The translations under genes and the position numbers were made by a program. From the IMG/VR virus record IMGVR_UViG_3300017746_000165, positions 1 to 23,468 of that record: a DNA stretch of 23,468 bases. One strand, written 5' to 3'. Positions within the stretch are counted from its first letter, which is position 1. Each line of letters opens with the position of its first letter. Shown here piece after piece: positions 4,135 through 19,273 of the stretch. The notes beneath the pieces are model-generated. The model had not been told where the DNA came from. It saw nothing but the letters and a program-made list of their open reading frames with translations, and searched no databases. This stretch comes from a virus.

Positions 4135-6768
4135 ATGGCTGATGATAACAGAGTAATATTAGATTATGATGAAGTAGCTGATCTAGATGATGCAAAACTA
4201 GAGGCAGCCAAAAAGAAATTTCAAGAAATAGCATATCCATTAGTAAGAGATGTAACGCCCGTGGTCGGTGAAGCACAGTCCTATAAGTATGCAATGCAAG
4301 ATGCTCAGACTTTAGCAAAAGCTGCAAGAAGTGAACCAGGCTATGATGATATGACTCCAATTGAAGCGTTGGGGTATGTAGGTCTAACTGCACTTGGAGT
4401 AGCGGGTATGACACCATTAATAGGGCCTGCATTTAAAAGTGCAGCTAAAGGTATTCGTTCATTGATGCCGAACCGTGGAACACGGCAATCAGCAGGTCAA
4501 ACACTTCCAGGAGCTCGAGCAAACGAATTTGATAGAATGGATCTTGATACTCCAATGAATGATGATCTAAGAGCATCTATTCAAAACGACCCTAGGTTTG
4601 ATATTTTTGTAAATGGGTTACCTGATTACAGAAGAACTCCTGAATCTTTGGAAGCAAATATGGTTGAGTACAGAAACATATACAGAAACGATCCTGCAAG
4701 AATGGCACAATTTAATGAAGACTATTCTCTTAGAGGAAGCACAAAAAGTTTAACTGAAGAAGCGGCTCAAGCAGATAAAAACCAAGTAGATTTTGATGCA
4801 AAAGTTATAGGTAATTCATCAAAAGCATTAACAATACCAAAAGAACCTTTAACGTTTGGTAAAGGGTTAAGACAAAATAAAAATGATACGGTGAAAGAAT
4901 ATTTAGGTTCTTCAGCTTGGGACGAAGTAAATAGATCTGGTAATGCAATGGGTACACCGCAAGAGTGGTTAGGATTTTTAAAAGGGCTAAGACAAAAAGG
5001 AATAAAAGCAGAAGAGTTATCAGACTCAGGATTATTGATGTTTGGTAAAGGTGGTGAACCTGTAGGCGGAGATATATTTAATTTAGCAAAAGACAATGCC
5101 AAACTTAAAATAAGTAAATCAGAAATTTTAGCAGCATTAGAATCTAATCCGACATTTAGAATGAAAACAAAAGATTACAGATATCCAATCAATACAGATG
5201 AAGTATTAAATGTATATCCTAATTTTGCAAAACTAAGTAGAGAAGTCGAATCAATGATTTTAAAAAACACAACTGATATATCAGATGTAAGTGCGCCTAC
5301 AAGATCAGAGTTTAGTAAAATTACAGATAGCTTAAATAATGATAGAATCACCTTTAATGATTTAGCAGGTTCTCTTTCGGCTAAACCTAATAATTTATCT
5401 TCACTTGAAGCGACCAAAGTAAGATTAACAAATTCATTAAATAATTTTAAAGACAATGATAAAATACTGGTACGAGCTTTAATAGATGAATATGATAAAG
5501 CTATTGGTATTGCATCAAGAGCAACGGAAGCCACTTCAATGCCAAGACATAAAGGGACTTTCCCAGGTGGCGGAACTGATTATAGAGAAAAGGTAACTTA
5601 TTTAAATGAAGCTATACCAGGTAACTCTGTAGGTATGAGAATAGATAGCTCACACTTTAATGAACCTAATGCAGTGACATTTGTAAGATACGATACTAGA
5701 GGTGTAGACAATTATGGGGACACCTATTTTATGGTTGAGTTACAATCAGACCCTCATCAAAGCATAACTAAATCTGCATCAAGTCATTATAAAAAATTTA
5801 AAAAAGGTGAATATGAATTTAGTCCTGTAGACATGGTTAGAAAAAATCCAAATAGCAAAGCAATTAGAACAAGAGTTATAAAAAGAGAAATTGATGATCT
5901 TTTAACTAGACAAAATGAAATACAAAAAAATGCAATGGAAAGACCTCTAGCACCACCAGAGATAGACGAATTAGATTCAATAATGAAAAGTATTAAAACT
6001 AAAGAAAGAGATTTAAATAGAATGCCTGCTACACTAGGAGAAGCATCCTCTACTCAAACTTACCGAGGATCTACTTATGATATAGATAATAAAAGTTATG
6101 ATTTTTTTCCAATGGGTAATGAATCTACTTGGGTCAAAGCAAATATTAAAGGTTTAATTAATGACGCAAGAAAAAATAATAAAAGATACATTGCACTTGC
6201 ACCAGCAGACTTCTTTCAATTAACTATAAATAATAAAGCAAAGATAGAACAGTTTTATGGTTTGGGAAATAAAAGACTAAGTGATGAATTTATAAACGTT
6301 GATTCAATGAAAAATTTTAATAACGCTGATGGCAGTGGATTTGGTAAGTATAGAAAATATAAAAAAGTAGATGACGATAGTTACTCAGACTCTTTGCCTA
6401 CTGAAGAATTAGGGGGAATGGCTGTTGTACCGAAGGCTATGAAAGATGTTGCAAAAGAACTTGGCGCAACGTTTACTACAAAGAAAGTATTTCACACAGA
6501 TCAAAATAAACTATATAAAATATATGATAATAGTAAAAAAGTACCTGCATATGCTTTTAGTAAGAAATATGAAATGGAAGAGTTTTTTGCTAATTTAAAT
6601 AGGAAAAGTGGATTGGAGATGATGAAAATGGAAACAGATGATCCTAGAAATTTTGTTGAAAGTATAGTAATAGATTTACAAGGGACTAATAAAAAGGCTA
6701 AAATGAAAGCTTACAAATTTGGAGGATTCGTGCAGGTTGATAGATCTAACTTTGCACCTTTATTTTAA
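4135..6768 (+). CDS. Large polyvalent-protein-like protein (877 aa)
   Basis: This is a large protein of unknown function between terL and the portal. An early hydrophobic segment (ALGYVGLTALGVAGMT, about residues 78-93) could be a membrane or ejection helix. Residues around 260-345 (WLGFLKGL, GIKAEELSDSGLL, KISKSEILAAL) and the segment with SSHFNEPN (505-512) and ELQSDPHQ (535-542) resemble motifs that I recall from phage polyvalent proteins (SSHFDEPN and EIQSDWHQ type). Here the Trp of that second motif is Pro. The later ALAPADFF and ELGGMAVVPKAMKDVAKELGA segments fit the same module. Such proteins are thought to be injected with the genome in some phages. That this is an ejected internal protein is inference. 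The ribosome binding site is weak; the next gene overlaps its stop by 1 nt. Confidence 0.85.
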   Translation: MADDNRVILDYDEVADLDDAKLEAAKKKFQEIAYPLVRDVTPVVGEAQSYKYAMQDAQTLAKAARSEPGYDDMTPIEALGYVGLTALGVAGMTPLIGPAFKSAAKGIRSLMPNRGTRQSAGQTLPGARANEFDRMDLDTPMNDDLRASIQNDPRFDIFVNGLPDYRRTPESLEANMVEYRNIYRNDPARMAQFNEDYSLRGSTKSLTEEAAQADKNQVDFDAKVIGNSSKALTIPKEPLTFGKGLRQNKNDTVKEYLGSSAWDEVNRSGNAMGTPQEWLGFLKGLRQKGIKAEELSDSGLLMFGKGGEPVGGDIFNLAKDNAKLKISKSEILAALESNPTFRMKTKDYRYPINTDEVLNVYPNFAKLSREVESMILKNTTDISDVSAPTRSEFSKITDSLNNDRITFNDLAGSLSAKPNNLSSLEATKVRLTNSLNNFKDNDKILVRALIDEYDKAIGIASRATEATSMPRHKGTFPGGGTDYREKVTYLNEAIPGNSVGMRIDSSHFNEPNAVTFVRYDTRGVDNYGDTYFMVELQSDPHQSITKSASSHYKKFKKGEYEFSPVDMVRKNPNSKAIRTRVIKREIDDLLTRQNEIQKNAMERPLAPPEIDELDSIMKSIKTKERDLNRMPATLGEASSTQTYRGSTYDIDNKSYDFFPMGNESTWVKANIKGLINDARKNNKRYIALAPADFFQLTINNKAKIEQFYGLGNKRLSDEFINVDSMKNFNNADGSGFGKYRKYKKVDDDSYSDSLPTEELGGMAVVPKAMKDVAKELGATFTTKKVFHTDQNKLYKIYDNSKKVPAYAFSKKYEMEEFFANLNRKSGLEMMKMETDDPRNFVESIVIDLQGTNKKAKMKAYKFGGFVQVDRSNFAPLF

Positions 6769-6977
6769 TGATAGATAAATTAATAACTATGACAGCTAAA
6801 GCTCCACAAGATACTGCAGCGTATGCGCAAGAACAAATAAATCAACCGCAAGACGTTTCATTAGGTATGGATGGATTTCAAAAAGATAAAACAATGAAAA
6901 TGAAAAAAGGTGGTTTTATTGCAAAAGGATGTGGTAAGGTCATGAGCAACAGACGTAAAAAAACAAGGATGTATTAA
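6768..6977 (+). CDS. Small basic protein with KKGG tail (69 aa)
   Basis: The start overlaps the previous stop by one base (TAATG) and the stop overlaps the portal start in the same way, so this gene is held between two virion genes in one transcript. The N-terminal 40 residues are neutral and glutamine-rich. The C-terminus is strongly basic: KMKKGGFIAKGCGKV (about 44-58), then NRRKKTRMY. The KKGG-hydrophobic pattern is shared with several other small proteins of this window (see 17774, 17967, 18366, 19052). I recall similar GGFIAKGCG tails in uncultured marine phage proteins, without a known function. It may be a minor virion or DNA-binding component. Confidence 0.8.
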   Translation: MIDKLITMTAKAPQDTAAYAQEQINQPQDVSLGMDGFQKDKTMKMKKGGFIAKGCGKVMSNRRKKTRMY

Positions 6978-9331
6978 TGTCAGGAGAAAGTTTCGAAAAC
7001 ACAGATTTAGAGATTGAACAAGAAACTGGTTCATTACCAGAAGATGTAGGCACTGTAATTGATGAAGATGAAAATGTAATTGCAGGAGAAGATTTACCTG
7101 AAGTTGCTGAAGAATCTTTTTATACTAACCTTGCAACAGTCTTAGATGATCAAACACTTTCTAAGATTGGATCTGATTTGGTGTCTGATTACGAACAAGA
7201 TAAAAGATCAAGACAAGAGTGGGTAGATTCTTATGTCAAAGGTTTAGATCTATTAGGGTTTAAATATGAATCTCCAAGCAGACCCTTCTTAGGTGCAGCG
7301 GGTGTGACCCATCCTTTACTGGCAGAATCTGCAACACAGTTTCAAGCACAAGCGATAAAAGAACTATTACCCTCAGACGGACCAGTCAGAACAGAAGTAA
7401 TCGGTGCGCAAACAGATCAAAAAGTAGATCAAGCTAGCAGAGTTAAAGATTACATGAATTATATGATCATGAACAAAATGGAGGAGTACACTCCAGACAT
7501 GGATCAAATGTTATTTATACTTCCTCTTACAGGATCAACATTTAAAAAAGTTTATTTTGATCCAGTAATGAATAGAGCTTGTGCTAAATTTATAAAAGCA
7601 GAAGATTTAGTAGTACCTTACAATGCAACTGATTTATCAGATGCAAGTAGAATTTCTCAAATAGTTCAAACATCAGAAAATGATTTAAGAAAATTACAAG
7701 TTTCGGGATTCTATAGAGATATAGATCTTCCGAGACCAGTTTATAAACAGGATAAAGTCCAAGAAAAGATTTATGAACTGGAAGGTGTGTCCGCAAATGA
7801 CGGACGGGATCGTGGTGGGTTATATAATTTAGTTGAGGTTCATACTAATTTGGATATTCCTGGTTATGAAGATCCAGATGGAATTAAAGTTCCTTATATA
7901 GTAACTGTAGATGAAGACTCTAGAAAAATTCTTTCTATCTATAGAAACTACAAAGAAAACGATCCTCAAAAGAAACCAAAACAATATTTTGTACATTATA
8001 AATTTTTACCAGGACTTGGATTTTATGGTTTTGGTTTAATACACATGATCGGTGGTCTATCAAGAACTGCTACTTCTGCATTAAGACAATTACTAGATGC
8101 AGGAACTTTATCTAATTTACCTGCTGGATTTAAATCTAGAGGTCTTAGAATAAGAGACGATGCAGACCCTTTACAACCAGGTGAGTTTAGAGATGTGGAT
8201 GCTCCTGGCGGAAACATAAAAGATCAATTTCAATTTTTACCTTTCAAAGGCCCTGACCAAACTTTATTTCAATTGTTAAATTTTTGTGTTGAATCAGGAA
8301 GAAGATTTGCTTCAATTGCTGATATGAAAGTATCTGATATGAACGCACAAGCTCCTGTTGGAACTACAATGGCGATCCTTGAGCGAGGGTCAAAAGTTAT
8401 GTCTGCTATCCACAAGAGATGTTACTATGCAATGAGACAAGAATTTAAAATGCTTGCAAGCGTGTTTGCTGATTACCTACCACCTGAATATCCATATGAT
8501 GTAGTAGGTGGAAATAGATTTATTAAACAAGAAGATTTTGATGATAGAATAGATGTAATCCCAGTAGCGGATCCTGATATATATTCTATGACACAAAGAA
8601 TACAAGTTGCTCAAGCTGAATTACAACTAGCACAATCTAATCCAGCAATGCATGATGTTCATGAAGCATACAAAAGAATGTACCAAGCTTTAGGTGTAAA
8701 AAATATTAATGGTATTCTAAAGCCACCGCCTGAACCACCAAAACCTTTAGACCCTGCAATTGAAAATACAGGTGCACTACAAATGATTATTCCAAAAGCT
8801 TTTCCTCAACAAGATCATGAGGCACATATTCAAGCACACATGGCATTTATGACTTCGAGAATGGTTCAAGTAAATCCACAAATATATGGATTACTTCAAG
8901 GCCATATAATGGAACATGTATCATTACAAAGTAAACAAGAAGTATTACAACAGTTTAATCAAAACCCACAAATGGTTGAGATGCAAACAGCTGATGAAGA
9001 AGCTTTTACAATAGAATTTGATAACGCGGTTGCTAAAAGAATTGCACAAAGAATACAAGAATTAGTAGCGATGGAACAACAATTTACTGCACAACAAAAT
9101 CAAGATCCTCTTTTAGCTTTAAAACAAAAAGAATTAGACCTTAGAGCAATGGATATTCAACGAAAAGCTACTGAAGAAGCACAAAAAATGGATTTTGAAA
9201 CAAACAAATTTAGTGCACAACAGACTTTAGCTGAAGATAAGCTTAATTTGAATGAAGAATTAGGTAGAAAAAGAATAGAATTGCAAGAAGAGAAACTTGA
9301 TCAAGAAAATAACAATGATTCTGAGAGATAA
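6977..9331 (+). CDS. Portal protein, P22/podovirus-like
   Basis: This is the dodecameric portal at the capsid vertex through which DNA is packaged and ejected and where the connector binds. At 784 aa it has the size of P22-type portals. Supporting segments are GSTFKKVYFDP (about 190-200), LSRTATSALRQLLDAGTL followed by NLPAGFK in the middle, the QFLPFKGPDQTL tunnel-loop region, and ADMKVSDMNAQAPVGTTMA. The last 85 residues are glutamine- and glutamate-rich, charged and helical (LKQKELDLRAMDIQRK onward), consistent with a C-terminal barrel of the P22 kind. The N-terminal 45 residues are acidic. The assignment is from overall pattern and context, directly downstream of terL and upstream of scaffold and capsid genes. 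Confidence 0.9.
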   Translation: MSGESFENTDLEIEQETGSLPEDVGTVIDEDENVIAGEDLPEVAEESFYTNLATVLDDQTLSKIGSDLVSDYEQDKRSRQEWVDSYVKGLDLLGFKYESPSRPFLGAAGVTHPLLAESATQFQAQAIKELLPSDGPVRTEVIGAQTDQKVDQASRVKDYMNYMIMNKMEEYTPDMDQMLFILPLTGSTFKKVYFDPVMNRACAKFIKAEDLVVPYNATDLSDASRISQIVQTSENDLRKLQVSGFYRDIDLPRPVYKQDKVQEKIYELEGVSANDGRDRGGLYNLVEVHTNLDIPGYEDPDGIKVPYIVTVDEDSRKILSIYRNYKENDPQKKPKQYFVHYKFLPGLGFYGFGLIHMIGGLSRTATSALRQLLDAGTLSNLPAGFKSRGLRIRDDADPLQPGEFRDVDAPGGNIKDQFQFLPFKGPDQTLFQLLNFCVESGRRFASIADMKVSDMNAQAPVGTTMAILERGSKVMSAIHKRCYYAMRQEFKMLASVFADYLPPEYPYDVVGGNRFIKQEDFDDRIDVIPVADPDIYSMTQRIQVAQAELQLAQSNPAMHDVHEAYKRMYQALGVKNINGILKPPPEPPKPLDPAIENTGALQMIIPKAFPQQDHEAHIQAHMAFMTSRMVQVNPQIYGLLQGHIMEHVSLQSKQEVLQQFNQNPQMVEMQTADEEAFTIEFDNAVAKRIAQRIQELVAMEQQFTAQQNQDPLLALKQKELDLRAMDIQRKATEEAQKMDFETNKFSAQQTLAEDKLNLNEELGRKRIELQEEKLDQENNNDSER

Positions 9332-9446
9332 AGGTAAAAAATCAGGGCCTCCACCAAAAAAAGGGCCAATGCCACAAGGTTTTAGTGGACAAAAAATGAA
9401 AAATGGTGGAAAAATAACTAAGAAAATAGAAAAAAAGAAAAAATAG
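9315..9446 (+). CDS. Tiny basic protein with proline-rich core (43 aa)
   Basis: ATG 9315 lies inside the portal end (17-nt overlap) and the frame closes at TAG 9444-9446. The product has SGPPPKKGPMPQGF in the middle and a lysine-rich end (MKNGGKITKKIEKKKK). I recall a DKGKKxGPPPKKGPxPQG pattern in alphaproteobacterial and marine phage genomes in this same place, which is why I accept so short an ORF. The NGGKI segment is a possible member of the GG-tail set. No upstream ribosome binding site is visible, so translation probably depends on coupling to the portal. The function is unknown; it is likely small enough to be missed by automatic annotation. Confidence 0.6.
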   Translation: MILRDKGKKSGPPPKKGPMPQGFSGQKMKNGGKITKKIEKKKK

Positions 9447-9454
9447 GAGCATTT

Positions 9455-9838
9455 ATGTGGTTATCAGCAATAAAATTAGCAGTTTCAGCAGGAAGTAAGA
9501 TTTACGCTAACAAGCAGCGAACTAAGATGGCTATGTCAGACGCACAATTAATGCATGCATCTCGTATGGCCGAAGGAAAAGAAGCTTACCAAGGCAAATT
9601 ATTAGAAGCACGTCAATCGGACTGGAAAGACGAGGCGGTACTCATAATATTATCGGCTCCAATTTTAATTTTGGCCTGGGCGGTGATATCTGATGATCCA
9701 ACAGCGATGGACAAGGTAAGATTGTTCTTCGATATGTTCTCTACGCTACCGTCATGGTTCACAAATCTCTGGATCCTTGTCGTGGCGAGCATCTATGGTA
9801 TAAAGGGAACACAAATCTTCCGTAATGGAAAAAAATAG
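9455..9838 (+). CDS. Membrane protein, holin-like candidate (127 aa)
   Basis: AGGAG (about 9445-9449) precedes the ATG. The N-terminus is a weakly hydrophobic helix (AIKLAVSAGSKIYANK), followed by a charged helical region. Two clear membrane segments come next: AVLIILSAPILILAWAVI (about 61-78) and LWILVVASIYGIKGT (about 105-119), joined by a loop containing DDPTAMDKVRLFF. The layout resembles three-helix holins of the kind known from gene transfer agents and marine phages, which would time lysis by permeabilising the inner membrane. It lies far from the M15 endolysin (16577), among head genes, so a structural or ejection role in the membrane is also possible. Holin is a moderate-confidence guess. 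Confidence 0.65.
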   Translation: MWLSAIKLAVSAGSKIYANKQRTKMAMSDAQLMHASRMAEGKEAYQGKLLEARQSDWKDEAVLIILSAPILILAWAVISDDPTAMDKVRLFFDMFSTLPSWFTNLWILVVASIYGIKGTQIFRNGKK

Positions 9839-10056
9839 TGGACTTTGAAACAATAAAATACATCAAGAATAAACTGCTCGAACCTAAGAAAGAACGACTT
9901 AAAGATAAAGTTGTAATTGGTGTTGACAATTGGGACGAATATAAATATATAATAGGACAGATCAGATCCATAGAGGATCTGCAACAAGACCTAACGGACT
10001 TGTTCAAAAAACAGGAGCTACATGACGATAATAACGCCGAAGGCGCAGGAGACTAA
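9838..10056 (+). CDS. Hypothetical protein (72 aa, GTG start)
   Basis: The GTG at 9838 shares its first base with the previous stop (TAGTG), so coupling is likely. The product is charged and probably helical, with an aromatic centre (VDNWDEYKYIIGQIRSIEDLQQDL) and a polar, acidic end. No membrane segment or known motif is visible. Its 3' end overlaps the co-chaperonin start by 35 nt, the largest overlap among the head genes. I do not recognise it. The WDEYKYIIGQIRSIEDL stretch could form an oligomerisation helix, as in small minor virion proteins. Confidence 0.7.
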   Translation: MDFETIKYIKNKLLEPKKERLKDKVVIGVDNWDEYKYIIGQIRSIEDLQQDLTDLFKKQELHDDNNAEGAGD

Positions 10057-10477
10057 AAATGGAAGTCTTCTCAATGCTTACAAGACTAAAGAAGAAGTAG
10101 AAAAACTTTACTTACATTCTGATTCCATTGACAAAAAAGCCGTAGAAAAATTACCTCAACCAACAGGATGGAGAATGTTAGTTCTTCCATACTCAGGCCC
10201 TAAAAAATCTAAGGGGGGTTTAGTATTTTCAGATGAAACTCATGAAAGAATTCAAATGACAACTGTTTGTGCATTGGTTCTTAAATTAGGATCTCTTTGT
10301 TATTCAGACAAAGATAAATTTGGAGATAAACCGTGGTGTAAAGAAGGTGATTGGATTATCTTCGGTAGATATGCAGGAAGCCGTTTCAAAATTGATGGTG
10401 GTGAAGTGCGTATCTTAAACGATGACGAAGTTATCGCTAAAATCAGTAATCCAGAGGATATACTGCACACTTATTAA
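10022..10477 (+). CDS. GroES-like co-chaperonin (Cpn10 family)
   Basis: This is probably a phage GroES substitute that caps host GroEL during folding of the capsid protein, as gp31 of T4 does. GroES-type features begin near residue 49 (GWRMLVLPYS, first beta strand). PKKSKGGLVFSDETHER corresponds to the mobile loop with its hydrophobic GGIVL-like contact (here GGLVF). Next come KEGDWIIFGRYAGSRF, the GDxVxF strand typical of the family, and EVRILNDDEVIAKI at the end. A 48-aa N-terminal extension and an insert with two Cys (around SLCYSDKDKFGDKPWC) make it longer (151 aa) than bacterial GroES (about 97). CAGGAG precedes the ATG. Its place just before scaffold and capsid genes fits head folding. 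No GroEL gene is visible. Confidence 0.85.
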   Translation: MTIITPKAQETKNGSLLNAYKTKEEVEKLYLHSDSIDKKAVEKLPQPTGWRMLVLPYSGPKKSKGGLVFSDETHERIQMTTVCALVLKLGSLCYSDKDKFGDKPWCKEGDWIIFGRYAGSRFKIDGGEVRILNDDEVIAKISNPEDILHTY

Positions 10478-10488
10478 GGAGCTAAAAG

Positions 10489-11487: not shown

Positions 11488-11498
11488 AGGAGCTAAAT

Positions 11499-11972: not shown

Positions 11973-12033
11973 TTTTTTAGTGACTACCAAGGGGTTATTA
12001 AACTAACAACTAACAAACTAAGGAGTAACAACC

Positions 12034-12615: not shown

Positions 12616-12631
12616 TAAGGAGTAAATAACT

Positions 12632-13540
12632 ATGGCTATATCACGAGCACAACTAGTTAAAGAACTAGAGCCAGGTTTGAATGCCTTATTCGGCCTGGAG
12701 TATGATAGATACGAAAATGAACACGCAGAAATCTTTACTACAGAATCTTCTGACAGAGCTTTCGAAGAGGAAGTTATGTTATCAGGCTTCGGTGGTGCAC
12801 CTACTAAAACAGAAGGTGCTGCTGTAACATTTGACGATGCAAAAGAAAGTTTCACTGCAAGATATACGCATGAAACTATCGCTTTAGCATTTGCTGTTAC
12901 AGAAGAAGCAGTAGAAGATAACTTGTACGACAGATTGGCTGCTCGTTACACTAGAGCATTGGCAAGATCAATGGCTAACACTAAACAAGTGAAAGCTGCA
13001 GCTGTTCTTAACAATGGTTTCGACACTGCTAATGGCGGTGACGGACAACCTCTATTATCTAATGCACACCCACTTGTAAGTGGTGGTACATTTAGAAACG
13101 AGTTGGCAACTGCTGCCGATCTATCTGAAACATCATTAGAACAGTCGTTAATTGACATTTCGGCTTTCGTTGATGAAAGAGGAATGAAAATCGCTACTCA
13201 AGGTAGAAAATTGATAATTCCAAAAGAATTACAATTCACTGCTGAGAGAATCTTAAAGTCACCTTTAAGAGTCGGTACTGCTGATAATGACATCAATGCG
13301 ATGCAGAATATGGGAATGATTCCAGAAGGTTATAGAATCAACCATTTCTTAGCTGACAATGATGCATTCTTCATCATGACTGATGCACCTAATGGAATGA
13401 AACATTTCGTTAGAGCACCATTAAGAACTGCAATGGAAGGTGATTTTGACACTGGAAACATGAGATTCAAAGCTAGAGAAAGATACAGCTTCGGCTTTTC
13501 TGACCCTAGAGGAATCTTCGGTTCACCAGGCGCAGCGTAA
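12632..13540 (+). CDS. Major capsid protein
   Basis: This 302-aa protein is the likely main shell subunit. AAGGAG (about 12616-12621) lies upstream. The N-terminal helix (LVKELEPGLNALFGLEYDRY) is followed by a segment with glycines (VMLSGFGGAPTKTEGAAV), which fits an HK97-type E-loop. Next come YTHETIALAFAVTEEAVED (spine/P-domain region), ARSMANTKQVKAAAVLNNGF (spine helix), QPLLSNAHPLVSGGT, GRKLIIPKELQFTAERIL, and a C-terminal FKARERYSFGFSDPRGIFG. This order matches HK97-fold capsid proteins related to the Mu gpT group. A strong terminator follows immediately, and scaffold and co-chaperonin lie upstream, as expected. I assign it from pattern and context; there is no sequence match to a named type phage. 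Confidence 0.88.
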   Translation: MAISRAQLVKELEPGLNALFGLEYDRYENEHAEIFTTESSDRAFEEEVMLSGFGGAPTKTEGAAVTFDDAKESFTARYTHETIALAFAVTEEAVEDNLYDRLAARYTRALARSMANTKQVKAAAVLNNGFDTANGGDGQPLLSNAHPLVSGGTFRNELATAADLSETSLEQSLIDISAFVDERGMKIATQGRKLIIPKELQFTAERILKSPLRVGTADNDINAMQNMGMIPEGYRINHFLADNDAFFIMTDAPNGMKHFVRAPLRTAMEGDFDTGNMRFKARERYSFGFSDPRGIFGSPGAA

Positions 13541-13561
13541 TTTTTAATTACCTAATAATTT

Positions 13562-13594
13562 AAAAGGGGCGGAGTTTACTCTGCCCTTTTTTTT
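13562..13594 (+). terminator. Strong intrinsic terminator after capsid gene
   Basis: A 13-bp stem (13562-13574 with 13579-13591, two G-T wobbles), loop TTTA (13575-13578), and eight T at 13587-13594. Stem, loop and T-run are all typical of a Rho-independent terminator. It begins 22 nt after the capsid stop and ends the packaging/head transcription unit. Confidence 0.88.
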
Positions 13595-13622
13595 ATATAT
13601 ACTAAAAAAACCTAGAAAAATT

Positions 13623-13665
13623 ATTATGTAGACTGACTAGGCAGACGGTATAGAGACTACATAAT
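13623..13665 (+). promoter_or_regulatory. 9-bp inverted repeat in leader of decoration gene
   Basis: ATTATGTAG (13623-13631) and CTACATAAT (13657-13665) are perfect inverted copies 25 nt apart. They lie between the terminator and the AAGGAG of the 13690 gene. They may be an operator, a leader hairpin or part of a phage-specific promoter; I see no good sigma70 -35/-10 pair nearby. Confidence 0.45.
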
Positions 13666-13689
13666 TAACGCTATACAAAGGAGAATATT

Positions 13690-14097
13690 ATGGCAAATAC
13701 AACTTTTTCAGGACCAGTCCGATCGGAAAATGGTTTTGAATCTATTACAAAAAACGCAACTGGAACAGTAACTTCAAATGCATCTTATGGAAAATCAATA
13801 AGAGGTGGTGTTCAATCTTTATCAGGGGCAGGTGCAATTGATCTTGATAATTTAGTAACTGAACTTACTACAGGCGGTGGAGCTGCAGCTGTTACTTTAG
13901 CAGACGGAACTACTTCAGGACAAGTCAAAATCATTTATATGGTTGTTGATGGAGGAGGAACTGCAACTGTTACTCCAACTACTTTTGCTAGTGGATCAAC
14001 ACTTGCTTTCGATGCAGTGGCTGAAGCTTGTACATTAGTTTGGAACTCTACAGTTGGTTGGGTTCTTGTATCAGACAGAGGCGTAACAATAGCATAA
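13690..14097 (+). CDS. Probable decoration/head fibre protein (135 aa)
   Basis: AAGGAG (13678-13683) lies 6 nt before the ATG. The product is rich in Thr, Gly, Ala and Ser, with repeated short beta strands (TVTSNASYGKSI, TGGGAAAVTLADGTTSG, GGTATVTPTTFASGSTLAF, TLVWNSTVGWVLVSD). The last 75 residues resemble a small beta-sandwich seen at the end of many phage surface proteins (IKIIYMVxDGGG, WNSTxGWxLV). It is the first gene after the capsid terminator. I expect an exposed capsid decoration protein or a short fibre; the order of genes favours decoration. Confidence 0.75.
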   Translation: MANTTFSGPVRSENGFESITKNATGTVTSNASYGKSIRGGVQSLSGAGAIDLDNLVTELTTGGGAAAVTLADGTTSGQVKIIYMVVDGGGTATVTPTTFASGSTLAFDAVAEACTLVWNSTVGWVLVSDRGVTIA

Positions 14098-14104
14098 TTA
14101 ACTA

Positions 14105-14124
14105 GTGGCTCCTTCGGGAGCCAC
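14105..14124 (+). promoter_or_regulatory. Perfect UUCG tetraloop hairpin in mRNA
   Basis: GTGGCTCC (14105-14112), TTCG, GGAGCCAC (14117-14124) forms an 8-bp perfect stem closed by a C-UUCG-G tetraloop, one of the most stable RNA hairpins known. No T-run follows (GAACAAAGGAG), so it is unlikely to be an intrinsic terminator. It sits 7 nt after one stop and just before the next gene's AAGGAG, so it probably shapes mRNA stability or processing, or tunes expression of the two virion genes. Confidence 0.75.
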
Positions 14125-14141
14125 GAACAAAGGAGAATTTT

Positions 14142-14462
14142 ATGGCTTTTAAAGGCGATATACAAGCAACAAGGTCTGCAGCGGCGGCTGGCGCAACTGC
14201 AATTATTGAACAACCTATTAGGTTGAGAGGTATTATAATTGCATCAGACGGCACAGGAGCTGGAACTTTGGAGCTTACAACTACATCAAATTCAGGAGCT
14301 ACTTTGTTTCAAGCAGATGTACCCTCTGGAGATGTTATTAACTTTAACTTTCCAGAAGATGGAATAGTATTTCCAAAAGGAATTTTTTGTAAAACAAAAA
14401 CTAAAGTTACAGCTTATACTTTACTGACTGATAAATATTCAGGTAAAGGTTTAACTGCTTAG
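14142..14462 (+). CDS. Probable beta-rich virion protein (106 aa)
   Basis: AAAGGAG (14129-14135) lies 6 nt before the ATG. The product begins MAFKGDIQATRSAAAAGATA, followed by beta-strand-like segments (PIRLRGIIIASDGTGAGTLE, TTTSNSGATLFQADVPSGD, GIVFPKGIFCKTKTKVTAYT). It contains the GxxxF.K.G pattern often seen in small phage decoration or head-tail proteins, has a single Cys, and carries no membrane segment. Together with the 13690 gene it appears to be a pair of abundant surface proteins. A structural role is likely; the exact one is unknown. Confidence 0.75.
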   Translation: MAFKGDIQATRSAAAAGATAIIEQPIRLRGIIIASDGTGAGTLELTTTSNSGATLFQADVPSGDVINFNFPEDGIVFPKGIFCKTKTKVTAYTLLTDKYSGKGLTA

Positions 14463-14469
14463 GATTTAA

Positions 14470-14802
14470 ATGAATAGTGTAGGCATACAATCTAAAGGTA
14501 CTAGTCCTATTTTGTTAAAAGATGGAGGTATGCCTACCAGAAGAAAATCTTCTGGTAATTACCGATCAACAAAATCAGGAGCAGGGATGACACAAAAAGG
14601 TGTCATGGCTTACAGAAGAAAAAATCCAGGTTCAAAATTAAAAACTGCTGTAACAGGTAAAGTAAAAAAGGGATCAAAAGCTGCAAATCGTAGAAAATCA
14701 TACTGTGCAAGATCTTTAGGTCAATTAAAAAGATCAAGCGCAAAAACAAGAAACGACCCTAATTCAAGAATTAGACAAGCAAGAAGGAGATGGAAATGTT
14801 AG
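14470..14802 (+). CDS. DUF6321-like basic protein (110 aa)
   Basis: This is a small, highly basic protein. After a short leader with a KDGGMPTRRK motif (about 17-26), it shows the conserved core GMTQKGVMAYRRKNPGSKLK, TGKVKKGSKAANRRKSYCAR (about 62-81) and DPNSRIRQARRRWKC at the end. I recall this core as DUF6321, frequent in marine and algal viruses; the number is from memory. With about one third Lys and Arg it could bind DNA or RNA, possibly packaged in the head. Two Cys (in YCAR and at the C-terminus) are conserved in the pattern I recall and might bind metal. Its stop overlaps the start of the 14796 mini-gene. Confidence 0.8.
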   Translation: MNSVGIQSKGTSPILLKDGGMPTRRKSSGNYRSTKSGAGMTQKGVMAYRRKNPGSKLKTAVTGKVKKGSKAANRRKSYCARSLGQLKRSSAKTRNDPNSRIRQARRRWKC

Positions 14803-14912
14803 ATCAATTAAAAGAAATTTGGAGAAGAATTAACGCAAGAATAATAGCCACGCCTAATGAAATGCATGGGATAATTTTATTGTTGATTTTAATAACACTA
14901 ATATTAAAATAA
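14796..14912 (+). CDS. Tiny membrane protein (38 aa)
   Basis: This gene is easily missed. ATG 14796 has AAGGAG (14784-14789) six bases upstream and overlaps the previous stop by 7 nt; TAA is at 14910-14912. The first 24 residues are amphipathic and basic (LDQLKEIWRRINARIIATPN), followed by one membrane helix (GIILLLILITLILK). With such a size and a single C-terminal helix it could be a pinholin-like or accessory membrane peptide. The DNA near 14864-14875 carries CATGGGATAATT, the same word as at the leaders near 635 and 1767. No homologue is recognised. Confidence 0.6.
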   Translation: MLDQLKEIWRRINARIIATPNEMHGIILLLILITLILK

Positions 14913-14919
14913 TATATGA

Positions 14920-15639
14920 ATGGCTTATCTAAATGCAAATATACCGCCCATATATTGTAAAATAAAAAAGGAGTATCTTTATGATCTTAAAGAACATTAT
15001 GGAGAAAGTGAAGAGTGTGTGGTCTTTGGTATTACATCCATTACAGGTCGTGCAATCTTATTTAATATCATGTTACCAAATGGTGCATGCTTTTGGCGTT
15101 TGCCTATCGCAGCGTTTTTCCAAAAATCGCATGATAGAGCCGATGTGCCGAATATGCAGACGCACGAATTGGAATTGTGGAACTGTTTTAGTTACTATCC
15201 TAGCGTTCATTGCTTTGATTGGTTGGATGGTCTAAAAGGTAAATTTCTAGGGTTAGATAAAAAATTCTATCATGGAGAATATTTATTTACGATTGATTGG
15301 GGTCATCCAGAAAACAACATTCTTAATACGGAACATTCTGAAATACCTCAAGAACATAAGTGTGCACATATATTGGCTCTTGCTAACGGGAATTATGCAG
15401 CTCAGCCTAATAATCGTATTCTGTGGCACGTTAATAGTTATACTACTGATAACAGCTGGCCAGACTATAAGGTTCAAACCACCGTTTGGGATGCAGAAAA
15501 TAATGATATGGTTACAGAAGATACGGACAAAATGTTTTATGAAATGGAAGAAATAAAAGATAATAAAAGAACATATACTAAATACAAAGAATATGCAGAT
15601 GATATGTCTTTTGAAAACGACGGTAAAAAAAATGATTGA
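14920..15639 (+). CDS. Hypothetical protein (239 aa)
   Basis: I see no named family, though similar proteins seem to recur in marine phage genomes. It starts 7 nt after the previous stop without a clear ribosome binding site. It is soluble, with aromatic-rich segments: GESEECVVFGITSITGRAIL (about 29-48), LPNGACFWRLPIAAFF, ELELWNCFSYYPSVHCFDWL, GEYLFTIDWGHPE, and NNRILWHVNSYT. Cys and His are frequent (CVVF, NCFSYY, HCFD, EHKCAHIL), so metal binding is possible. The C-terminal 50 residues are acidic and low in complexity. The next gene starts inside its 3' end. A virion role is possible given the neighbours, but I cannot assign one. Confidence 0.75.
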   Translation: MAYLNANIPPIYCKIKKEYLYDLKEHYGESEECVVFGITSITGRAILFNIMLPNGACFWRLPIAAFFQKSHDRADVPNMQTHELELWNCFSYYPSVHCFDWLDGLKGKFLGLDKKFYHGEYLFTIDWGHPENNILNTEHSEIPQEHKCAHILALANGNYAAQPNNRILWHVNSYTTDNSWPDYKVQTTVWDAENNDMVTEDTDKMFYEMEEIKDNKRTYTKYKEYADDMSFENDGKKND

Positions 15640-15802
15640 TAAATGGATATACGGGTTTTTTAGTGCTCTAGACAAAATTGGTCTAATGGTTGATAATCTT
15701 TGTCAACGTATGACTAGGATAAATATGAATTATTATTTTACAGGCTTGCTAATTGTAATGTTAGTCATCCTAGCTTTTTGTGGAGGGCCAAGTGTCCAAT
15801 AA
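15632..15802 (+). CDS. Small single-helix membrane protein (56 aa)
   Basis: I chose ATG 15632, which overlaps the previous stop by 8 nt, rather than upstream in-frame starts that extend far into that gene. The first half is amphipathic (WIYGFFSALDKIGLMVDNLC), then a basic turn (QRMTRIN) and one membrane helix (YYFTGLLIVMLVILAFCGG, about 34-52) close to the C-terminus. The layout would suit a small holin or antiholin. The next gene starts within its last 11 nt. With the three genes that follow and the endolysin it could form a lysis cassette; this is inferred from order and topology, not from a sequence match. Confidence 0.6.
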   Translation: MIDKWIYGFFSALDKIGLMVDNLCQRMTRINMNYYFTGLLIVMLVILAFCGGPSVQ

Positions 15803-16217
15803 AGCTTTACAAATATCTGAAGAAGCATCTGTTCAGATGCCGATGAAGACGGTTGCTAGCTTGATAATAATGGTCGCGATCGGAACTTGGGCTTATTTTG
15901 GTATAATTGAAAAACAAAACAAGATGGCGACGCAGTTAGAATTAATGTCTAAAGATGTAGAAAACAATTCAGAGTTTAGAATTAAATGGCCACGAGGACA
16001 AATGGGTACGTTGCCCGCGGATTCTGAGCAGTACATGATGATTGAGGATTTGTACAAGACCACTGATCGTTTAAATCAACACATAGAATCAATGGCATTA
16101 AATAAAGTAAACATAGAATTTTTAACAAAACAAATGGAAAAAGTTTTGGTTGATATAGAAAAGTTAAAAGATCAAAACAGGGATTTTAAATACAATGGCA
16201 ACGGGACGAGTCACTAA
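15792..16217 (+). CDS. Membrane-anchored coiled-coil protein (i-spanin-like topology)
   Basis: The likely start is GTG 15792, five bases after GGAGG (15782-15786); GTG 15780 is the longer alternative. The 141-aa product has a polar N-terminus, one membrane helix (VASLIIMVAIGTWAYFGIIE, about 21-40) and then a charged helical region (KQNKMATQLELMSKDVENN). A conserved-looking RIKWPRGQMGTLPADSEQY segment follows, then a coiled coil (IEDLYKTTDRLNQHIESM, later TKQMEKVLVDIEKLK). N-in topology with an outer coiled coil resembles inner-membrane spanins, but no outer-membrane partner lipoprotein is obvious, so I call only the topology. Similar proteins appear next to endolysins in marine phages, as far as I recall. 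Confidence 0.65.
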   Translation: MSNKALQISEEASVQMPMKTVASLIIMVAIGTWAYFGIIEKQNKMATQLELMSKDVENNSEFRIKWPRGQMGTLPADSEQYMMIEDLYKTTDRLNQHIESMALNKVNIEFLTKQMEKVLVDIEKLKDQNRDFKYNGNGTSH

Positions 16218-16365
16218 AAAAGTGTTAGATCACATAGCACAAATAAACAAAGAGAACAAAGCTATGAGTTTAGCTAAAGAATTAAAAAAAGAAGTAGAAA
16301 CTGGTAAACATGGTACACAAAAATATGTTGTCAAAGAAGGTGAAAATAAAGGTAAAGTGATATGA
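16195..16365 (+). CDS. Small basic helical protein (56 aa)
   Basis: ATG 16195 lies inside the previous gene (23-nt overlap) and the frame ends at TGA 16363-16365, overlapping the next ATG as ATGA. The product is Lys-rich and helical (VTKKVLDHIAQINKENKAMS, then LAKELKKEVETGKHGTQKYV). There is no membrane segment or signal. The upstream AACAGG (16176-16181) is a weak ribosome binding site, so coupling is likely. It is too short for most ORF filters but fits the continuous run of overlapping genes. The function is unknown. Confidence 0.6.
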   Translation: MATGRVTKKVLDHIAQINKENKAMSLAKELKKEVETGKHGTQKYVVKEGENKGKVI

Positions 16366-16574
16366 TTACAGAAATTGTGGTAGCTCTACTTATGTTTGTA
16401 AATGGAGAGATCAAGGAGCACCTTATTCAAGATAATATGGCTGCGTGCCTTCGCGGGAAGCGTACCGCAGAAAGACAATACAGTGAATCTGTATCCTATA
16501 AATGTTATAAAGGTAAAGCACAGACAGAAGTATACCAAGGAAGAAAATCAATAAAAGCATTAATATTGGAGTAA
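16362..16574 (+). CDS. Small secreted-like Cys protein (70 aa)
   Basis: The first 14 residues (MITEIVVALLMFVN) are hydrophobic like a short signal or anchor, but lack N-terminal positive charges. The rest is polar with two Cys (MAACLRGKRTAE and SYKCYKGKAQTE) that could form a disulfide in the periplasm. The end is KSIKALILE. I recall similar short proteins (MITELLVxLLxF start, two Cys, KSIKA end) in marine phages, unnamed. It lies between the spanin-like gene and the endolysin, so a periplasmic lysis or envelope role is plausible. It could also be a surface-exclusion factor; nothing in the sequence decides. Confidence 0.65.
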   Translation: MITEIVVALLMFVNGEIKEHLIQDNMAACLRGKRTAERQYSESVSYKCYKGKAQTEVYQGRKSIKALILE

Positions 16575-16576
16575 TT

Positions 16577-17053
16577 ATGAATTTGAGTCGTAATTTTAGT
16601 TTACAAGAATTAATTAAATCAGATACCGCCATCAGGAAGGGTATTGATAATAATCCAAATGCAGATCAAGTAGAAAAGTTAAAAGCGTTGTGTGAAAATA
16701 TTTTACAACCAGTTCGTGATCATTTTGGCAGAGTAAAAGTTACTAGCGGATTCCGTTCACCTGAGTTGTGCCAAGCCATAGGATCAAGTTTGACCAGCCA
16801 GCATTCAAAAGCTGAAGCCGCTGATTTCGAATGTATAGGAACCGACAATGCTGAACTAGCAGATTGGATATATAAGAACCTTGAGATAGATCAATTGATT
16901 CTCGAATTCTACACTCCAGGAGAACCTAATTCGGGATGGATACATGCAAGTTACATACCTTATCAACCAAGAAAACAATTCTTGCATGCTTTTAAATTAG
17001 AAGGTAGAACTAAGTACAAACCAATTATAGGAAAAGCAACCGATTTAGTTTAA
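16577..17053 (+). CDS. M15-family peptidase, endolysin
   Basis: This is probably the phage endolysin, cutting peptide bonds in peptidoglycan as a zinc D-Ala-D-Ala carboxypeptidase or endopeptidase. The N-terminus (NLSRNFSLQELIKSDTA) and VKVTSGFRSPEL (about 53-64) are typical of the M15 (hedgehog/DD-peptidase) fold. Zinc ligands are seen in SQHSKAEAADF (His76, Asp83) and GWIHASY (His123). The length of 158 aa is normal for the single-domain form. There is no signal peptide, so release needs a holin. It starts 3 nt after the previous gene, within the membrane-protein cluster. The family is secure; whether it acts on the phage's way in or out is not shown, but lysis is the usual role. Confidence 0.92.
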   Translation: MNLSRNFSLQELIKSDTAIRKGIDNNPNADQVEKLKALCENILQPVRDHFGRVKVTSGFRSPELCQAIGSSLTSQHSKAEAADFECIGTDNAELADWIYKNLEIDQLILEFYTPGEPNSGWIHASYIPYQPRKQFLHAFKLEGRTKYKPIIGKATDLV

Positions 17054-17202
17054 TGGCCATATCAAGATCACAAATACCAAAAGAAGTTGAAGGCAAATTA
17101 AGAGGTGCTAGAAAAGGATCCAATGATAAGAGGAGACAGTTCCGATTACGAACTTCTAAAAAAGTGGTGCGAAACAGTTCCAGTATACAGTCCAAAAGAT
17201 AG
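17053..17202 (+). CDS. Tiny basic ORF overlapping the methyltransferase
   Basis: ATG 17053 shares its first base with the endolysin stop; the frame ends at TAG 17200-17202 and gives 49 aa, starting MAISRSQIPKEVEGKLRG and becoming very basic (NDKRRQFRLRTSKKVV). MAISRSQ-type starts are common in small basic proteins of marine phages, as I recall. The last 80 nt overlap the methyltransferase gene in another frame. It may be an intact tiny gene, or the start of an older gene whose 3' part was replaced when the methyltransferase came in. There is no good ribosome binding site. Confidence 0.35.
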   Translation: MAISRSQIPKEVEGKLRGARKGSNDKRRQFRLRTSKKVVRNSSSIQSKR

Positions 17203-17695
17203 ATTTTATTCTTGTGAAATAGGAGTCCGAGAAGGACTTGGTTCAAAAATTATAATGGATGCATTAAAAGAAAGATTAAAAGGTCTTCGCTATATGCATT
17301 TTGGGATAGATCCATATGGTAATTTAAATTATCAACATTATGATAAATCAGATTCATATACTTGTGATTACACAGATGAAATGTCTGAGCAAATGGTCAA
17401 AGATTTTGAAGAATACCCTATGTTTAATTTTATAAAGATGACAGATACTCAATTTATGAATGAGAACGGTCACTTAGAATATTTTAACTTTGTTCACTTT
17501 GACGGACCACATATGACTAAAGATGTCCTAACGGAAGCTGTATGGTTTGCAAATAGATCATTAAAAGGAACTAGGTTTGTTTTTGACGATTATCCTAAAT
17601 ATGACATGGAATTAATTCATAAGGTTCTTGAAAAGTATGGGTTTTCTATAATAGAATCTGGCAGAAATAAAATATGCCTAGAAAGAACCCAATAG
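17123..17695 (+). CDS. Class I SAM methyltransferase-like protein
   Basis: The segment SCEIGVREGLGS (about 30-41) looks like the glycine-rich AdoMet-binding motif I. Further supports are HFGIDPYG (59-66, acidic end of strand 2), FNFVHFDGPHM (121-131, motif IV-like DGxH) and TRFVFDDY (150-157). This fits the Methyltransf_24-like group of class I methyltransferases, often acting on small molecules, sugars or lipids; the substrate is unknown, and DNA motifs such as DPPY or PC are absent. ATG 17123 has AAAAGGA (17112-17118) upstream; GTG 17105 would add six residues. The gene is flanked by two tiny basic ORFs that it overlaps on both sides, so it may be a later insertion (moron). Confidence 0.75.
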   Translation: MIRGDSSDYELLKKWCETVPVYSPKDRFYSCEIGVREGLGSKIIMDALKERLKGLRYMHFGIDPYGNLNYQHYDKSDSYTCDYTDEMSEQMVKDFEEYPMFNFIKMTDTQFMNENGHLEYFNFVHFDGPHMTKDVLTEAVWFANRSLKGTRFVFDDYPKYDMELIHKVLEKYGFSIIESGRNKICLERTQ

Positions 17696-17823
17696 CCAAA
17701 AACTTACGGACTAGACGATTTAGACTGAAAGTGATAAAGTCTAAGAAAGTTTATAACAGGAGCAAACTTCAAAATGACAAAATTATGCCCGAGAGGGAAA
17801 GCAGCAGCAAAGAGAAAGTTTAA
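17674..17823 (+). CDS. Small basic conserved protein (49 aa)
   Basis: ATG 17674 lies within the methyltransferase end (22-nt overlap); the frame ends at TAA 17821-17823, overlapping the next gene by 50 nt. The first 30 residues (PRKNPIAKNLRTRRFRLKV, then IKSKKVYNRSK) match a tiny protein pattern I recall from many alphaproteobacterial and marine phages (NPIAKxLRTPxYRxRVVKxKKxYxRKK). The tail after about residue 30 differs from that pattern and coincides with the overlap with the 17774 gene, so the stop may have moved downstream. It is Lys/Arg-rich and may bind nucleic acid. The function is unknown. Confidence 0.6.
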   Translation: MPRKNPIAKNLRTRRFRLKVIKSKKVYNRSKLQNDKIMPERESSSKEKV

Positions 17824-17974
17824 GGTATATCCGTCTGCATACGCGAATGCATATGCAAGCAAAATTTGTGCTGGGAAAGCAAAAGATCCATCAGGTGTAA
17901 AAAGAAAAGATTGGGGCCCTAAGAAAAAGAAAGATGGTGGCATGATTAATATGACAAAGATGAAATATGTCTAA
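17774..17974 (+). CDS. Small basic protein with GG tail (66 aa)
   Basis: AGGAG (17758-17762) lies 11 nt before the ATG. The core LCPRGKAAAKRKFKVYPSAY (4-23) followed by ANAYASKICAGKAK is a recurrent marine phage and algal virus motif with two Cys; I recall it as an unnamed conserved pattern. A lysine-rich stretch (VKRKDWGPKKKKD) leads to the C-terminal tail GGMINMTKMKYV. That tail is closely similar to the end of the next protein (GGIINTTKYKIL), although the two proteins differ otherwise. It overlaps the next gene by 8 nt. It may be a DNA-binding or virion-packaged protein; no direct evidence. Confidence 0.75.
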   Translation: MTKLCPRGKAAAKRKFKVYPSAYANAYASKICAGKAKDPSGVKRKDWGPKKKKDGGMINMTKMKYV

Positions 17975-18356
17975 ACAAGGAACATGTTGGGACGGCTATG
18001 TCCAAAAGGGCATGAAGAAAAAAGGAAAGAAAATGGTTCCTAATTGTGTCCCTGCTGGTATGAAAGAAGGTGGTTTAACCAAGTGGTTTAATCAAAAATG
18101 GGTCGATATAGGATCTAAGAAAAAAGGTGGAGGATATAAGGAATGTGGAAGAAAATCTGCAAGTGGATCAAAAAGAAAGTATCCAAAGTGCGTCCCTGCT
18201 GCCAAAGCAGCAAGCATGACAAACTCTCAGAGGCGGAGTGCCGTTGCAAGGAAACGATCAGCGGGTAACCCTGGCGGAAAGCCCACTAATGTTCCTACCT
18301 TTGCAAAGAAACAATGTGGTGGTATAATAAATACAACGAAGTACAAAATTTTATAG
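17967..18356 (+). CDS. DUF5872-like basic protein with GG tail
   Basis: This 129-aa basic protein appears to be two units. Residues 5-36 (QGTCWDGYVQKGMKKKGKK, then MVPNCVPAGMKEGG) form a Cys-containing short module. Residues about 39-115 (KWFNQKWVDIGSKKKGGGYK, ECGRKSASGSKRKYPKCVPA, AKAASMTNSQRRSAVARKR) match the pattern that I recall as DUF5872. The words NCVPAG and KCVPAA suggest that the short module and the DUF share an ancestral element. The C-terminal tail GGIINTTKYKIL is like that of the upstream gene. Six Cys might bind metal. It is probably nucleic acid-binding or packaged; unproven. Confidence 0.8.
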   Translation: MSKQGTCWDGYVQKGMKKKGKKMVPNCVPAGMKEGGLTKWFNQKWVDIGSKKKGGGYKECGRKSASGSKRKYPKCVPAAKAASMTNSQRRSAVARKRSAGNPGGKPTNVPTFAKKQCGGIINTTKYKIL

Positions 18357-18365
18357 GAGAATAAA

Positions 18366-19052
18366 ATGCCAAGATCAGAAGGTTTAAAACCAATAGGTGA
18401 CTCAGTAAAAAAACTTATTGAAAAACTAAAAAAAGAACGTGAAGAACGTCGAAATAAAAATAAATCTGTTAGAACACAACCTAAACTTCCTGGTATGAAA
18501 AAAGGCGGAGATGTAAAAGGTTATATGTCAGGTGGTTTTGGTATATTCTCCAAAAAGAAAGCTCAAGCTGATGAACCTGATAAAAAAGAATCTAATGAGT
18601 CTAAGAAAAAGAAAAGACTCGAAGAATTGAAAAAGGAGATAGGTATGAAAAAAGGTGGAGAAGTTCAAGGATATGAACAAGGCGGTATGACTAGTAAAAA
18701 AGGTGGAAGAAATAAGCCTAAACCTTTTTTAGGATTACCTGGCAAACCATTACCGAGACCACGACCTGGGCCTGGGAGACCACCACCAAAAAAAAGAAAA
18801 GAATCCTCTCCAAAAAAACAAGATCCTAATTATGGGGTAGAGTTTAATAGAGACGGACCAGCTAGACCAGGAAAAGATGTTACTGGATACATGGTTAAAA
18901 AAGGTGGTTTGATCGGTGGTCAAAAGAAACTTGATGCAAACAAAGACGGAAAGATTTCAGGAGATGATTTTAAAATCTTGAAAGCTAAAAATAACAAAAT
19001 GAAAGGTGGCGGAATCGCCATCAGAGGAACTAACTTTAAAGGAATATACTAA
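18366..19052 (+). CDS. KKGG-repeat protein with EF-hand-like loop (228 aa)
   Basis: AGGAG precedes the ATG by 7-8 nt. The N-terminal 40 residues are a charged helix (VKKLIEKLKKEREERRNKNK). Two copies of a 15-residue repeat, GMKKGGDVKGYMSGG (43-57) and GMKKGGEVQGYEQGG (93-107), share 11 residues and are separated by a Lys/Glu-rich helix. A proline-rich linker (PGKPLPRPRPGPGRPPP) follows, then a third VKKGG (177-181), a calcium-binding-type loop DANKDGKISGDD (190-201, one EF-hand or dockerin-like), and a tail GGGIAIRGTNFKGIY. The whole is disordered-looking and basic. I do not recognise the full protein. It could be a multivalent virion-associated protein whose short repeats dock to a partner. 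Confidence 0.8.
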   Translation: MPRSEGLKPIGDSVKKLIEKLKKEREERRNKNKSVRTQPKLPGMKKGGDVKGYMSGGFGIFSKKKAQADEPDKKESNESKKKKRLEELKKEIGMKKGGEVQGYEQGGMTSKKGGRNKPKPFLGLPGKPLPRPRPGPGRPPPKKRKESSPKKQDPNYGVEFNRDGPARPGKDVTGYMVKKGGLIGGQKKLDANKDGKISGDDFKILKAKNNKMKGGGIAIRGTNFKGIY

Positions 19053-19273
19053 TGGATAATTCAAAAATAAAAATGCATAAAAAAATGGCTATGTCTGGAA
19101 AATCACCTGTCGGTAAAATGGGCGGTGGTATGATGAAACCTACAGGCTACAATAAAGGCGGAAGAGTAAGAAAACCAGTAACAGTTAAAGAAATTACACC
19201 AAAAGGTAAAAAAGGTGTCTTAATTTTTAAAGGCAAAGCTAAAGATTATAAAAACGTTGGCAAAAGTAAATAA
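19052..19273 (+). CDS. Small basic Met/Gly-rich protein (73 aa)
   Basis: The ATG overlaps the previous stop by one base (TAATG). The N-terminus is rich in Met and Lys (KIKMHKKMAMSGKSP), followed by KMGGGMMKPTGYNKGGRV (about 22-39), another member of the GG motif set. The C-terminal part (PVTVKEITPKGKKGVLIFKG) looks like a short beta hairpin with basic ends. There is no membrane segment. It closes the run of KKGG proteins before the connector genes. The function is unknown. Confidence 0.7.
   Translation: MDNSKIKMHKKMAMSGKSPVGKMGGGMMKPTGYNKGGRVRKPVTVKEITPKGKKGVLIFKGKAKDYKNVGKSK

Follow-up and report, generated by a model that had tools for sequence, protein, structure and literature searches.

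Short C-terminal tags shared by unrelated basic proteins of HTVC023P-like phages, a putative address label for virion assembly

Introduction

The virus record IMGVR_UViG_3300017746_000165 of IMG/VR (G000; 23,468 bases), analysed over its whole length and referred to here as the window, encodes several basic proteins with GG motifs. The locus raises the question whether proteins with unrelated bodies share one kind of chain end, and what such an end would do for the phage. The earlier note on this DNA had proposed a short C-terminal tag common to unrelated basic proteins, used for packing into the capsid or for binding a common partner. The shared tag was borne out by its fixed distance to the stop codon, selection at the peptide level, dozens of cores and exchange of tails; three parts of the proposal were not, namely KKGG as the tag, a single class of tag, and the open reading frames (ORFs) at 14470 and 19052 as carriers. 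The tails are true C-terminal peptide tags that end at the stop codon and are drawn from a small set of sequences. They look like an undescribed address label on many small basic proteins of this virus and hundreds of related ones, which most likely would direct these proteins into the particle during assembly.

Results

Tails in the window

All the ORFs and GG positions that had been listed are present, and the proteins are strongly basic (net charge +8 to +36). Conserved tails are found at 6768, 17774, 17967 and 18366:

6768..6977, + strand: 69-residue basic protein directly upstream of the portal gene, with a class A tag
6909..6974, + strand: class A tag GGFIAKGCGKVMSNRRKKTRMY of ORF 6768, residues 48-69, running to the stop codon
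17774..17974, + strand: 66-residue protein with a YPSAYANAYAS core (phrog_27331) and a class C tail
17936..17971, + strand: class C tail GGMINMTKMKYV of ORF 17774, residues 55-66
17967..18356, + strand: 129-residue protein with a DUF5872-like core (phrog_23735) and a class C tail
18318..18353, + strand: class C tail GGIINTTKYKIL of ORF 17967, residues 118-129
18366..19052, + strand: 228-residue lysine/glycine-rich protein with repeated MKKGG[DE]V, one EF-hand-like loop and a class B tag
19005..19049, + strand: class B tag GGGIAIRGTNFKGIY of ORF 18366, residues 214-228, in the register G(-13)xA(-11)x[RK](-9)G(-8)

The GG that precedes the tail lies at residue 48 of 69 in ORF 6768, 55 of 66 in ORF 17774, 118 of 129 in ORF 17967 and 214 of 228 in ORF 18366, where KKGG also occurs internally. 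KKGG itself had been taken as the shared signal. We rejected it as the tag because GG is also found inside proteins and the conserved stretch lies downstream of GG; the tag is the sequence after GG, and KKGG is usually the junction. Relatives of ORF 6768 bear the tag in 34 of 35 cases. The ends of ORFs 17774 and 17967 had been described as alike on dissimilar cores, and this pair recurs elsewhere on the same two unrelated cores (19 proteins with the class C tail). ORF 17967 scores 21.2 bits against DUF5872 (PF19197), below the curated cut-off of 27.5, and matches phrog_23735 clearly.

Three further ORFs that had been listed carry no tag:

9297..9446, + strand: basic protein of 43-49 residues directly 3' of the portal gene, no tag
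14470..14802, + strand: DUF6321 protein whose GG is close to the N-terminus; its end, RRRWKC, is invariant and is not a tag
19052..19273, + strand: 73-residue basic protein with internal GG motifs, end fitting no tag class

The protein at 9297/9315, named earlier as a possible member, is untagged in the window, whereas relatives of greater length encoded at this position carry a class A or B tag at the end, among them HTVC023P gp32 (which ends GIRGVGAAIRGHKFIGVK) and proteins in loci L019 and L029. ORF 14470 is a member of DUF6321 (PF19846; 45.6 bits, cut-off 28.5), its GG is N-terminal at residue 19, and none of its 206 DUF6321 relatives in the marine set has one of these tail classes. In ORF 19052 GG occurs only internally, and its C-terminal end is outside all classes.

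The tails are enriched at the C-terminus

Genes were called on 299 loci, and the last 25 residues of the proteins were searched for [KR]G.G.[AV]; there were 169 matches, against 17 with each tail shuffled. The motif is thus strongly enriched at chain ends over background, the point on which the earlier note had said its proposal would turn, and several tagged genes occur per phage, so that members are also found together. Class A reads GG(F/I)(I/V)A(K/R)GCG(K/A)VM..RRK.TK.. to the stop, and class B reads (GG..)RG.GAA(I/V)(R/K)G..F.G(V/I)(F/K/Y) to the stop. Class D has the conserved end YYKGMI or DYYKDLM, and classes E to H are smaller sets of further conserved ends. Strict class A and B tails number 276 in 5,053 proteins, compared to 0.35 per shuffled set, and the same patterns applied to 619,011 internal pseudo-ends gave nine matches.

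IMG/VR was scanned for classes A and B by the tail alone, ignoring the core; all scan counts given here, including those for class J below, are of matches listed and are lower bounds. The conserved core of the tag was C-terminal in 161/161 class B and 129/129 class A cases over all fetched loci. In the scan loci, the class B core starts 13 codons before the stop in 111/111 and the class A core 17 codons before the stop in 75/78, figures that are partly selected because the scan matches were confirmed using 32-residue tails.

The class B pattern had 11 matches in 84,980 cellular genomes, one of which, in a 7.5 kb contig from a Maricaulis metagenome-assembled genome, was confirmed. A tblastn search of the tags against isolates returned almost no matches, as expected for queries of 23-28 residues and a collection of 2.3 Gb.

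Many cores, exchanged tails

After removal of the tags, the class A and B carriers fall into 47 families (E 1e-5, 50% coverage), or into 29 with looser single linkage; these counts are approximate, since the families were delimited by BLAST comparison of basic sequences, which may have parted some distantly related cores. Tails and cores combine freely, and one core carries different tags in different phages. The YPSAYANAYAS core is found with class A (90), B (43), D (58), C (5), E (6) and F (2) tails, the DUF6496 core with class B (8), A (2) and D (1), and EF-hand-type cores with class D (10) and B (2).

The exchange can be followed in the gene of the 6768 family in loci L018 and L042. The cores are 98.6% identical and the tails 54.5%, while the flanks are 93% identical upstream and 94% downstream. 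The switch is located at the KKGG codons. Between L042 and L013 the tails are 94% identical, but the cores only 73%.

These data bear on the possibility of common descent, in which the body of one ancestral small protein diverged to give all carriers and the tail would be a conserved family end, not a mobile one. All carriers are basic, their genes share the same clusters, and loose single linkage merges many cores into the 29 families, as such descent would have it. However, one core carries different tail classes, L018 and L042 differ only in the tail amid DNA that is 93-99% identical, and cores with named domains (DUF6496, DUF6321, EF-hand type) are tagged in some phages only. As the sole cause common ancestry is already unlikely, and we regard this explanation as improbable.

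In the alignment of class B YANAYAS proteins, an invariant N-terminal domain is followed by a linker variable in length and sequence and then by the invariant tag. AlphaFold2 models have low confidence throughout, with a mean predicted local distance difference test score (pLDDT) of 56 for the 6768 family and 60 for a tagged YANAYAS protein; in the latter the minimum is at the tail (45-47), which hints weakly that this tail may be disordered.

Selection acts on the peptide

The codon columns of the class A and B tags have positions one and two fixed at the invariant residues and the third position free; for the class B residue G6, the codons are GGC (40), GGA (31), GGT (26) and GGG (13). The 60 bases downstream of the tags show no block conservation. 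Free wobble bases indicate that selection is on the peptide. The shared ends could still have been a feature of the DNA, such as a recombination site, a regulatory element or an overlap with the next gene, with no function for the peptide. Tails are exchanged at the KKGG codons, and 52-62% of the stops of tagged genes overlap or abut the next start, both of which would fit such a feature. But the wobble positions vary freely, downstream DNA is unconserved and 38-48% of tagged genes are without the overlap. We rejected a DNA or recombination element on the first ground and translational coupling of gene ends as the sole cause of the tails on the last; the DNA-level explanation is largely refuted by the codon analysis and is scarcely credible.

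A sister tag, class J

The freshwater cyanophage Pag-Yong1 has a head gene order like that of the window, and a protein encoded two genes upstream of its adaptor gene ends DGCAKRGRTKGRFI. The tag of this class, DG[I/C]AQRGKT[R/K]Gxxx-end, was searched for in IMG/VR with the DNA pattern D-G-x-A-x-R-G-[KR]-T-[KR]-G, regardless of lineage and core and without confirming matches at the protein level, which gave at least 120 rows. Among the matches listed, 153 of 174 translated start exactly 14 codons before the stop and all within 37; two to four copies are present on 42 contigs; 148 distinct carriers group into some 110 families; and the encoded bodies are positively charged for 98% of called carrier genes. 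Classes J and B have in common the register G(-13)-x-A(-11)-x-[RK](-9)-G(-8), counted from the C-terminus, which suggests that the two may be one underlying motif.

Nearly all in one virion lineage, close to virion genes

Its genes mark the window as part of the genome of an HTVC023P-like pelagiphage: it has terminase, portal, GroES, capsid and adaptor homologues of that virion lineage with gene order kept, and its portal is 56% identical to the portal of Pelagibacter phage HTVC023P. The lineage markers are:

2597..4129, + strand: terminase large subunit (phrog_38)
6977..9331, + strand: portal protein (phrog_1216), adjoining tagged genes
12632..13540, + strand: major head protein (phrog_371)
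19287..19976, + strand: candidate tail adaptor (phrog_12985), with the tagged cluster immediately upstream

The candidate adaptor has a weak match to the structural protein phrog_399, and its homologues are annotated as adaptor in DSL-LC04 and as portal-adaptor in Pag-Yong1. ORF 6768 precedes the portal gene, 9297/9315 follows it, 14470 follows the capsid gene, and the examined cluster 17774-19273 ends at the candidate adaptor (19287). Across loci with a marker nearby, tagged genes adjoin the portal or terminase gene, or precede the adaptor by one to four genes.

All 142 class A/B scan loci with any marker gene, and 115 of 120 class J loci, belong to one portal/adaptor/capsid lineage, among the matches listed and with the base rate uncontrolled. 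A contrast within the YANAYAS core is independent of that base rate, because the same core is compared across lineages. In this lineage, 239 of 267 YANAYAS proteins have an A, B or other GG tail, and among the other 28 the examples displayed have class D-like ends. In contrast, none of 13 YANAYAS proteins from HTVC106P-, HTVC010P-, HTVC203P- and P-SCSP2-like phages, which are of other, T7-like lineages, has these tails.

Further observations

Immediately before its class B tag, ORF 18366 has a single EF-hand- or dockerin-like loop, LDANKDGKISGDDFKILK (18921-18986, residues 186-207), for which every Pfam score is below the curated cut-off; comparable loops are found repeatedly in related phage proteins whose tails are different. 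Small neighbours of tagged genes include proteins made of tandem KGTKYMAKGGAM-type repeats (L287:8850-9095, L430:4085-4273, L432:4296-4556), which resemble the class B core (IRGTKFKG). Phages with class J also encode, two or three genes downstream of the adaptor, a small protein whose end, (I/V)(K)(I/V)RGTGAATKG....RGP.A, is a further variant of the RGxGAA box (L599:6272-6523, L555:8980-9177, L579:3535-3726). Several tagged proteins (L082:8718-9323, L220:5311-5919, L272:761-1135) have a common N-terminus, MSKKSRRRNR followed by an Ala/Gly/Leu-rich stretch, which may be a second shared end.

Among DUF6321 proteins, L355:6759-7088 starts with the tag-like sequence MGDIALRGQGKAM, and the core in L568:2337-2660 bears a C-terminal class J tag. 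Long phage proteins (phrog_3477, 928 positions; also phrog_727 and phrog_10346) match the module 14470-14802 at one end and 17967-18356 at the other, so the two modules are fused in other phages.

Between the terminase and portal genes, at 4135-6768, lies the gene of an 877-residue protein that ends KFGGFVQVDRSNFAPLF; its family keeps the end GG(L/F)V..(R)..FAPLF, which was seen on no other cores. Next to the tagged cluster, 17105-17695 encodes a protein of the Methyltransf_24 type (scoring above the Pfam cut-off), and in relatives members of a family of such proteins are found repeatedly near tagged genes. Positions 1-2500 of the window contain few convincing genes, yet they are 84-97% identical to several contigs of close relatives.

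Discussion

A proposed docking role for the tags

A body followed by a variable linker and a tag at the chain end is the layout of a docking peptide. The restriction to one virion architecture, the position in the virion gene region and the basic bodies point to a partner in the head or neck and to cargo that is associated with DNA. We propose that the tags are docking peptides that bring basic proteins to a head or neck component specific to this lineage, and give this reading a probability of roughly 0.55. The free C-terminus would dock on a component peculiar to this virion type, which may be the portal, the adaptor, the inner face of the capsid or a scaffold. As the particle assembles, several basic, probably DNA-associated proteins would thereby reach the procapsid interior or the portal vertex, in a manner that may be likened to the loading of encapsulin cargo by C-terminal peptides. 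KKGG would serve as a flexible hinge joining body and tag, and as the site at which tails are exchanged. The putative capsid packing or common partner of the earlier note fits the gene positions and the lineage restriction.

Several results weigh against docking on a head or neck component. A literature search for virion proteomics found none, and no receptor was identified; a PDB search with the tags, portal, capsid and adaptor gave no useful match to a solved structure. Class B tags from one phage resemble each other no more than those from different phages do (p 0.998); for class J, similarity within a contig exceeds expectation (p 0.0007). A single phage can have tags of several classes, for which one receptor is no simple account. 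We also considered covariation of the portal with the class A subtype, which was not borne out: portals 98.5% identical over 591 residues accompany different subtypes, which probably means that the subtypes are equivalent or that the partner is something other than the portal. The distant relatives that the BLAST-split core families may include count on the same side.

Alternatively, the tags may bind each other or nucleic acid, the arginine/glycine/aromatic tails condensing the basic proteins with the genome. In favour of this, the tags of classes A and J are basic, GG motifs are repeated in many carriers, and the tandem KGTKYMAKGGAM repeats of some neighbouring proteins resemble the class B core. 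Condensation by charge, however, would require neither an invariant sequence nor its exact spacing from the C-terminus, and it does not account for the restriction to one lineage while the same basic cores are untagged elsewhere; we consider it unlikely. The chances are slimmer that the tags are processing or stability signals, read by a maturation protease or by host proteolysis, and not docking peptides. C-terminal degrons likewise need a free C-terminus in a fixed register, and some relatives of the capsid protein family are fusions with head maturation proteases (phrog_4523, phrog_133). But no separate protease was recognised adjoining the tagged genes, and a general degron would not be restricted to basic proteins of the late region in one virion lineage. 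Adenain- or ubiquitin-like cleavage after GG was considered and dropped, as neither a supporting spacing nor a protease was seen.

Relation to known systems

Encapsulin cargo-loading peptides sit at the C-terminus and direct proteins into HK97-fold shells (PMC8346489). Like the phage tags, they are short conserved C-terminal peptides on unrelated proteins. They differ from the tags in sequence, and the tags are encoded with terminase, portal, head and adaptor genes and not with an encapsulin shell gene; unlike encapsulin peptides, the phage tags come in several interchangeable classes, and their partner is a prediction. The capsid targeting sequence of phage T4 is similar in being a short transferable signal that takes several internal proteins into the head, but it is about 10 residues long, N-terminal and removed by the head protease (PMC7697877), whereas the tags described here are C-terminal, end at the stop and are not known to be cleaved. 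By position or gene context, the phage tags belong to neither system.

The DUF6321, DUF5872-like, DUF6496 and phrog_27331 families describe cores, that is, tag-bearing modules or their neighbours, and not the tags. The bare tags had no match in PHROGs, and no NCBIfam model matched the window carriers or the class J carriers tested. The tag strings that were searched for are absent from the open-licence PMC literature, a search that subscription papers and preprints lie outside; DUF6321 has no mention there, and DUF5872 is mentioned in one paper. To our knowledge, no such C-terminal sorting system has been described for tailed phages.

Implications

One recognisable kind of tag links about 47 (classes A and B) and about 110 (class J) families that are annotated as hypothetical and share nothing else, and this link predicts that the carriers work at one shared site within the virion. 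The chances are even that the tags amount to a phage C-terminal address code, in which a few interchangeable peptides in exact register would assign dozens of unrelated basic proteins to sites in the virions of a single lineage, one that includes the pelagiphages of the ocean and relatives elsewhere. Most genes of abundant marine phages are without known function, and small phage proteins could be annotated by the tail rather than by the core. The tags may also be transferable for loading proteins into phage heads.

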